From Candidatus Sedimenticola sp. (ex Thyasira tokunagai) (GTDB lineage Bacteria > Pseudomonadota > Gammaproteobacteria > Chromatiales > Chromatiaceae), in contig CP134874.1 of the NCBI GenBank assembly GCA_037318855.1, forward strand, positions 434,598-498,597: a stretch of 64,000 nt of DNA, written 5' to 3'. The notes under the pieces are model-generated. The model did no database searches. It saw nothing but the letters and a program-made list of their open reading frames with translations, and was not told the origin of the DNA. Shown piece after piece: positions 39,785-49,500 of the stretch. Each line of letters starts with the position of its first letter. The stretch's first letter is position 1. The translations under genes were made by a program, and so were the position numbers.

Positions 39785-39859
39785 TGGGGCGTCGCCAAGA
39801 GGTTAGGCATCGGGTTTTGATCCCGACATACGCAGGTTCGAATCCTGCCGCCCCAGCCA
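39785..39859 (+). tRNA. tRNA-Gln (TTG)
   Basis: 75 bases including an encoded CCA. The acceptor stem TGGGGCG pairs with CGCCCCA; the anticodon loop TTTTGAT carries TTG; the T-arm is CGCAGGTTCGAATCCTGCC. It begins 16 bases after ispE and is probably co-transcribed. Its 3' end is duplicated 182 bases downstream. Confidence 0.97.
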
Positions 39860-40093
39860 TATTTAAGAGATTGTGAGTTTGGAAATCTGCTGCGGCAGAG
39901 AAAAGTTCACAGGCTCAGGGCGGCAGGGTTCGAACCGTAAGAGGTTCGACATCTCCGCGTAGCGGAGTGAACGTTGGCTGCAAGCCAGCGGCCCCGAAGG
40001 GGCGAAGGGCGTAGCCCTGAGTCATCCTGCCGCCCCAGCCATATTTAAGAGACTACGGGCTCAGAAATCTGCTGCGGCAGAGGAAAGTGCCCA
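39842..40093. mobile_element. tRNA-Gln-associated structured element
   Basis: The tRNA 3' end and its following about 65 bases (39842-39908) recur at 40024-40088, a period of 182 bases. Between them, 39918-39936 is an antisense copy of the T-arm and 3' end (18 of 19 positions). Four small hairpins follow: 39953-39967, 39975-39987, 39991-40003 and 40006-40018, with loops GTA, GCA, GAA and GTA. The antisense copy can pair with the second tRNA 3' end, enclosing the hairpins. It is related in plan to the element behind tRNA-Tyr. A further short echo (CCCAGCCATATTT) begins at 40090. Confidence 0.85.
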
Positions 40094-40126
40094 GCCATAT
40101 TTTGAGTGTCTGTTGAGGGTCTCGCG

Positions 40127-49192: not shown

Positions 49193-49277
49193 GGAGGGGT
49201 TCCCGAGTGGCCAAAGGGATCAGACTGTAAATCTGACGGCTCAGCCTTCGGAGGTTCGAATCCTCCCCCCTCCACCA
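49193..49277 (+). tRNA. tRNA-Tyr (GTA)
   Basis: 85 bases including CCA, with the long variable arm of tRNA-Tyr. The acceptor GGAGGGG pairs with CCCCTCC; anticodon GTA lies in GACTGTAAATC. First gene of the tufB tRNA operon. Its 3' end is duplicated 179 bases downstream. Confidence 0.97.
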
Positions 49278-49500
49278 GATTTTAGAGGTGAATATTAGGT
49301 TCATCTCGGTAGTTTTACTCCCTCGGATGAGGGGAGGTTTCGAACCGATAAGAGGTTCGACAAAATTGCGACAGCAATTTTGAACGCCGTGCAGTTCGCG
49401 GCGACCCAGAGGGGCGGAGAGCCGGTAGGCTCGGAGTAATCCTCCCCCCTCCACCAGATTTTAGAGGTGAATGTTTGAGTTCATCTCGTAGTAATTTTCT
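49259..49500. mobile_element. tRNA-Tyr-associated structured element
   Basis: The tRNA 3' end and following flank (49259 to about 49320) recur from 49438 to about 49500. Between them, 49331-49346 is an antisense copy of the T-arm (15 of 16), followed by AAGAGGTTCGACA as in the tRNA-Gln element. Hairpins follow: AAAATTGC/GCAATTTT (49362-49381), CGCCG/CGGCG (49385-49403), CCC/GGG (49405-49413) and GAGCC/GGCTC (49419-49432). It ends GAGTAATCC running into the second tRNA 3' end. It lies inside a transcribed tRNA operon. Confidence 0.85.

Follow-up and report, generated by a model that had tools for sequence, protein, structure and literature searches.

The RtT RNA family (RF00391) is known from the tyrT operon of E. 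coli. At the type locus in strain K-12, three units are located behind tyrV and one more between tyrT and tyrV, and these units, which score 133–138 bits and carry the small RNA annotation rttR, present their parts in the same order as the element described here. Two other systems come close to it. ERIC elements, which are 127-bp palindromes without relation to tRNA, are found with an internal insert of about 70 bp, and the rrnB operon of E. coli ends in two terminators, T1 and T2, with a segment between them. REP palindromes are likewise small hairpin repeats, which carry a GTAG (or CGTC) tag at one end and are thought to move as single-stranded DNA (PMC3733652).

We analyzed a stretch of 64,000 nucleotides from Candidatus Sedimenticola sp. 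(ex Thyasira tokunagai), here referred to as the window. An intact tRNA-Gln gene with anticodon TTG is located at 39785–39859 (ARAGORN; 61 bits against Rfam RF00005), on the plus strand like all features of the window described below. A direct repeat of 71 nt, comprising the tRNA 3' end and its trailer, occurs at 39842–39912 and again at 40024–40094 with 86% identity, which gives the spacing of 182 nt recorded in the preliminary description. The sequence at 39918–39936 is an antisense copy of the T-arm and the acceptor 3' strand, matching 39835–39853 in 18 of 19 positions, also as recorded. It is followed by a sense copy of the T-arm 5' half, GGTTCG (39943–39948), and immediately thereafter by a putatively mobile core cassette, ACATC...GAGT, with four hairpins of 3-nt loops in 74 nt (39949–40022), such that the core occupies the place of the T-loop in the second tRNA 3' end. 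A core-only covariance model, R1, matched 39949–40023 with 56.4 bits (E 1.7e-10), and the junction between GGTTCG and the core recurs in most elements of the survey presented below. A short third copy of the tRNA end, CCCAGCCATATTT, at 40090–40102 is probably the stump of another unit.

Folding of the element as RNA (-82.4 kcal/mol, z -7.4) and as DNA (-43.7, z -5.9) yielded a single compact structure in both cases, and none of 200 shuffled sequences reached an energy as low in either analysis. The antisense copy provides the 5' side of the predicted stems P1 and P2. Stem P1 (39918–39927/40026–40035) pairs the antisense arm with the second tRNA 3' end and closes the structure, which continues with hairpin P2 (39930–39936/39943–39949) and then P3–P6. 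The core hairpins, at 39953–39967, 39972–39990, 39991–40003 and 40006–40018, have the loops GTA, GCA, GAA and GTA, so that four hairpins with three-base loops preceding a second tRNA 3' end, as first noticed, are borne out by both folds and coordinates. Within a 316-nt stretch that includes the element, the tRNA-Gln keeps its normal fold.

The Rfam model of the RtT RNA matched positions 39907–40041 with 54.3 bits, which is above the gathering score of 45 bits. As in RtT, the repeat lies directly 3' of a tRNA gene and ends by repeating the 3' end of this tRNA. The host is tRNA-Gln, unlike the tRNA-Tyr of the type locus, but a tRNA-Tyr host is a property of the type locus that lies outside the Rfam definition, and the many isotypes among the surveyed hosts indicate that tRNA-Tyr is not defining for the family. 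The window element is thus an RtT member, and a variant in that its host is tRNA-Gln. It shares with E. coli RtT the succession of tRNA 3' copy, trailer, GGATGAGAA..GGTTCG, hairpin core and GAGTAATCC..CCA, with a unit period of 182 as compared to 178 in E. coli. It differs in consisting of a single unit plus a stump and in its score of 54 bits as compared to 133–138 bits, and the hosts in this genome are Gln, Tyr, Lys, Ser, Arg, Pro and Met rather than Tyr alone. The model of an Aggregatibacter small RNA, AaHKsRNA22 (RF02902), also spans the window core, although its score of 38.1 bits falls under the gathering score of 39.8 and Rfam lists no relation of this family to RtT in its output. The window contains a second RtT element behind tRNA-Tyr (49193–49277; ARAGORN), with a core cassette at 49360–49438 (R1, 65.5 bits). 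In this element (49193–49438; sequences L003 and L131) both the antisense arm and the 3' copy fit tRNA-Tyr.

The tRNA-Gln gene and its element are located between the ORFs of ispE and prs, in a neighborhood of genes that we take, from their sequences and general knowledge, to be hemA, a TPR protein gene, ispE, prs, rplY and pth. No terminator was found in the interval from tRNA-Gln to prs, which makes a common transcript plausible. Thus, of the earlier proposal that the element is part of an ispE–prs transcript, the position is confirmed and the shared transcript is plausible only. In a genome of the same genus (G001), the order ispE, tRNA-Gln, prs is kept and the site is empty of an RtT element.

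A survey with RF00391 identified matches in 14 of 38 relatives and in 66 of 369 genomes of the class, showing that the repeat, which had been proposed for a search at other tRNA loci of this genome and its relatives, is not confined to this locus. A tRNA or tmRNA gene was present upstream in the fetched stretch for 120 of the 146 matches, mostly at a distance of 0–80 nt. The hosts were tRNAs for Gln, Tyr, Glu, Arg, Val and Lys, all four tRNA-Ser types and tmRNA, to which other searches added Met, Pro and Asp. The ends of the elements follow their hosts. The 3' copy showed no mismatch in 12 positions to its own tRNA in 93 of 118 elements, whereas comparison with other tRNAs gave such a match in 1 case of 2908, and the antisense arm was nearer to the host tRNA in 72 of 85 elements (Wilcoxon p 1e-13). 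In genome G037, two cores that are 95% alike are located behind tRNA-Gln and tRNA-Val, with ends tailored to each host. The antisense arm often reads TGAGAACC instead of the exact antisense TTCGAACC, suggesting a constraint on this sequence.

Since the RF00391 survey is biased to tRNA-like flanks, the R1 model was built from the core alone, leaving such flanks out, and searches with it are free of this bias. In this genome, R1 identified 12 sites. Inspection placed all of them at tRNA genes or fragments, either within these or on one side of them, and on the same strand. The chance of finding 11 of 12 cores within 300 nt of a tRNA is approximately 1e-23, assuming 45 tRNA genes. In named genomes, which include Idiomarina, Alteromonas, Thiohalobacter, Chromatiales and Woeseiaceae, a 28-nt pattern derived from the first core hairpin occurred 47 times. 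Of these occurrences, 36 were no farther than 500 nt from a tRNA, and 35 of the 36 shared its strand. Counted by eye, approximately 30 followed a T-loop half, three were located in the D-arm of tRNA-Ser and four followed another core. The same pattern yielded no viral contig, and viral carriage was rejected; phage and plasmid BLAST matches include core copies of the rrn type, one of them beside murB.

The core behaves as a discrete unit. Junctions in core-core arrays fix its ends as ACAAA...GAGT, the cassette is approximately 70–80 nt long, beginning with A-C and finishing with GAGT, and insertions in T-loops have the junction GGTTCG^...^ATCC. Of the two features that mark a MITE, terminal inverted repeats and a target-site duplication, the core shows no obvious inverted repeats, and the G^A junctions permit a duplication of at most 1 bp. 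Compensatory changes were observed at 13 of 16 core pairs. Cores at different tRNAs of one genome had a similarity of 0.633 against an average of 0.541 (0 of 2000 permutations). Cores at the same tRNA in different genomes showed a marginal excess of similarity over the average (p 0.046), suggesting that there is likely to be some vertical inheritance. The triloop type C(GNA)G accounted for 183 of 232 triloops in tRNA-linked cores and 32 of 623 in their flanks, and was not dominant in a small set of cores, most of them away from tRNAs.

Several extra tRNA copies are interrupted by the cassette. Copies interrupted in the T-loop and located beside an intact gene are three tandem ones of tRNA-Gln in genome G144, one of tRNA-Gln in G030, and copies of tRNA-Ser in this genome (L141), G144 and G258. 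This genome also has two tandem tRNA-Ser copies that are interrupted in the D-arm (L136). One core is nested within another RtT (L164), a single core lies in antisense orientation (L160), and some cores are located in tRNA 3' halves that begin near the anticodon loop (G000:739775, G008 and G285).

Two further observations concern other tRNA loci. A tRNA-Arg gene (L004:822-1280) appears to be interrupted near the anticodon by some 400 nt of inserted sequence; neither ARAGORN nor Rfam reported a tRNA there, and a group I intron was rejected for lack of an Rfam match. The region G000:C1:735586-741416 (L004-L002) contains a transposase-like gene and small genes resembling a toxin-antitoxin pair between a tRNA-Lys with RtT and a core-bearing tRNA-Lys 3' half, with a similar downstream terminator at both ends.

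Cores were also identified away from tRNA genes. With ERIC recognized by the published ERIC1R and ERIC2 primers, cores inside ERIC were found in G592, G703, G537 and at dxs-yajO of E. coli. These differ from RtT in that the antisense arm is absent and the loop types are different. In the rrnA, rrnB and rrnD operons of E. coli (L297, L295 and L299), a core sits between the terminators T1 and T2 and is followed by AACTGCCAGGCATCAAAT or a similar sequence, which in rrnB is a copy of the 5S rRNA 3' end and its trailer (18 of 20 positions). Thus, the T1–T2 region of rrnB resembles RtT in having a core (52.5 bits), then a copy of the RNA 3' end and then a second terminator, and differs from the window element in that 5S rRNA takes the place of the tRNA. 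The antisense arm is absent here as well. This arrangement suggests that the double terminator is the outcome of an RtT-type duplication. The Rfam RtT model gave no match to the rrnB copy at E 0.05, and the ERIC copies were likewise not called RtT. Cores were in addition seen within two other dispersed repeat families, in G446 (L172-L178) and G580 (L189-L195). In Idiomarina zobellii, four dispersed cores away from tRNA genes (L258, L270, L278 and L285) have shared flanks, GGGCATGTG...AAAGTAGG.

The presence of the same cassette at many tRNAs, in ERIC and between T1 and T2 of rrnB suggests that repeats hitherto unconnected share one mobile unit. We consider it likely that the core of the RtT repeat is a non-autonomous mobile hairpin cassette that favors stable-RNA genes and resides in a partial tRNA duplicate, leaving an intact copy of the gene. 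The mobility of the core is likely, judging from its distribution in the sequences rather than from an observed transposition event. The earlier suggestion that the element is mobile and targets tRNA 3' ends has gained good support from the tailored ends, the empty site in G001, the interrupted tRNA copies, the nesting and the copies in ERIC and rrn. A role of the tRNA 3' end as a template would be compatible with the host-tailored antisense arm.

The arrangement may be read as two layers. The first would be a tandem duplication of the tRNA gene end with its trailer, by which the working tRNA stays intact. The duplicated trailers reach past the terminator T-run in 10 of 13 cases, suggesting that the duplication occurs at the DNA level, and retroposition of a terminated transcript was rejected on the same observation. 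The second layer would be the cassette of approximately 70–80 nt placed at precisely the T-loop site of the second copy and preceded by the antisense copy of T-arm and acceptor, which would pair with the interrupted sense copy and close the structure. The T-loop of tRNA genes appears to be the main target of the core. A cell would not survive a clean insertion in a tRNA gene that it needs, which may explain why the insertions observed lie where duplication has preserved an intact copy. More tentatively, insertion may proceed via single-stranded DNA of the sense strand, perhaps where strong transcription of a gene exposes its non-template strand; the strong strand bias, the hairpins and the target duplication of at most 1 bp would fit such a route, whereas the clue from the C(GNA)G loops is weakened by the mostly non-tRNA cores that do not show it. 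Simple insertion alone does not explain the antisense arm, which could be a product of fold-back copying past the folded core or could have been kept for an RNA function. Mobilization by RAYT or another Y1 transposase was rejected. Genes for Y1 transposases occurred in 10 of 14 RtT-positive and 12 of 24 RtT-negative relatives, thus with no clear co-occurrence, and were missing from four positive relatives, and none of the three Y1 genes in this genome adjoins a core. The core has small hairpins in common with REP, but its ends ACAAA...GAGT lack the GTAG or CGTC tag and no dedicated Y1 gene is flanked by cores in this genome. A more far-reaching version, which is possible but on balance rather unlikely, is that a tiny hairpin cassette, as a new kind of mobile element, hits heavily transcribed stable-RNA genes at T-loops and other loops via single-stranded sense DNA, with insertion coupled to copying of the target; the duplicated RNA 3' end and a target-templated antisense arm would then result, and RtT RNA, the ERIC insert and the doubled terminator of rrnB would all be its products.

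It is possible, if on balance doubtful, that RtT is instead a structured RNA under selection that is not mobile at present, and that is excised from the tRNA transcript, regulates, or shields or times tRNA processing, with the complementarity of the antisense arm kept by function. The rttR annotation in E. coli, the strong RNA fold, the compensatory changes in the core, the adherence of both stem arms to the host tRNA and the conserved junctions TGAGAACC..GGTTCG and GAGTAATCC would all be expected from such an RNA, but less so the patchy occurrence in the class and the empty site in the same genus, the ERIC and rrn-trailer cores without an antisense arm, the nested and tandem cores and the many forms in broken tRNA copies. 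The two views overlap, as the rttR annotation suggests that an RNA role, such as the decoy or processing device proposed earlier, may coexist with mobility, and a transcribed structure with a later RNA role beside mobility is possible.

We regard as unlikely that the repeats are old and have spread solely by recombination, through slippage, unequal crossing-over and gene conversion between tRNA ends, with the cores evolving in concert in each genome. Tandem units at many loci, E. coli among them, direct repeats that take in the trailer and often pass the T-run, and the likeness of cores within a genome are consistent with this process. It does not readily account for the near-identical Gln and Val cores of G037, whose flanks share little except the GGTTCG/ATCC junction, nor for core insertions within ERIC and within another core. 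The remnant of an island of a site-specific integrase, with the duplicated tRNA 3' end as att site, is highly improbable and was rejected: tRNA 3' ends are well-established att sites and some cores lie in tRNA 3' halves from near the anticodon loop, but no integrase was recognized among the neighboring ORFs as named from sequence and knowledge, one conserved core occurs at more than 100 loci, the repeats take in trailers, and the unit is also present in rrn and ERIC.

In the open-access papers searched we found neither a connection of RtT with the ERIC insert and the rrn T1–T2 segment nor the tRNA-tailored distribution of RtT over many isotypes, and earlier descriptions of both are possible. 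RtT has so far stood alone as an orphan RNA family. If its core represents a single mobile cassette, the RtT repeats, the ERIC insert class and the T1–T2 segment of rrnB, which is a component of many expression vectors, share an origin. RtT would then represent a mobile element that chooses stable-RNA genes while an intact gene persists, and the target choice and mechanism of its core are testable in E. coli.
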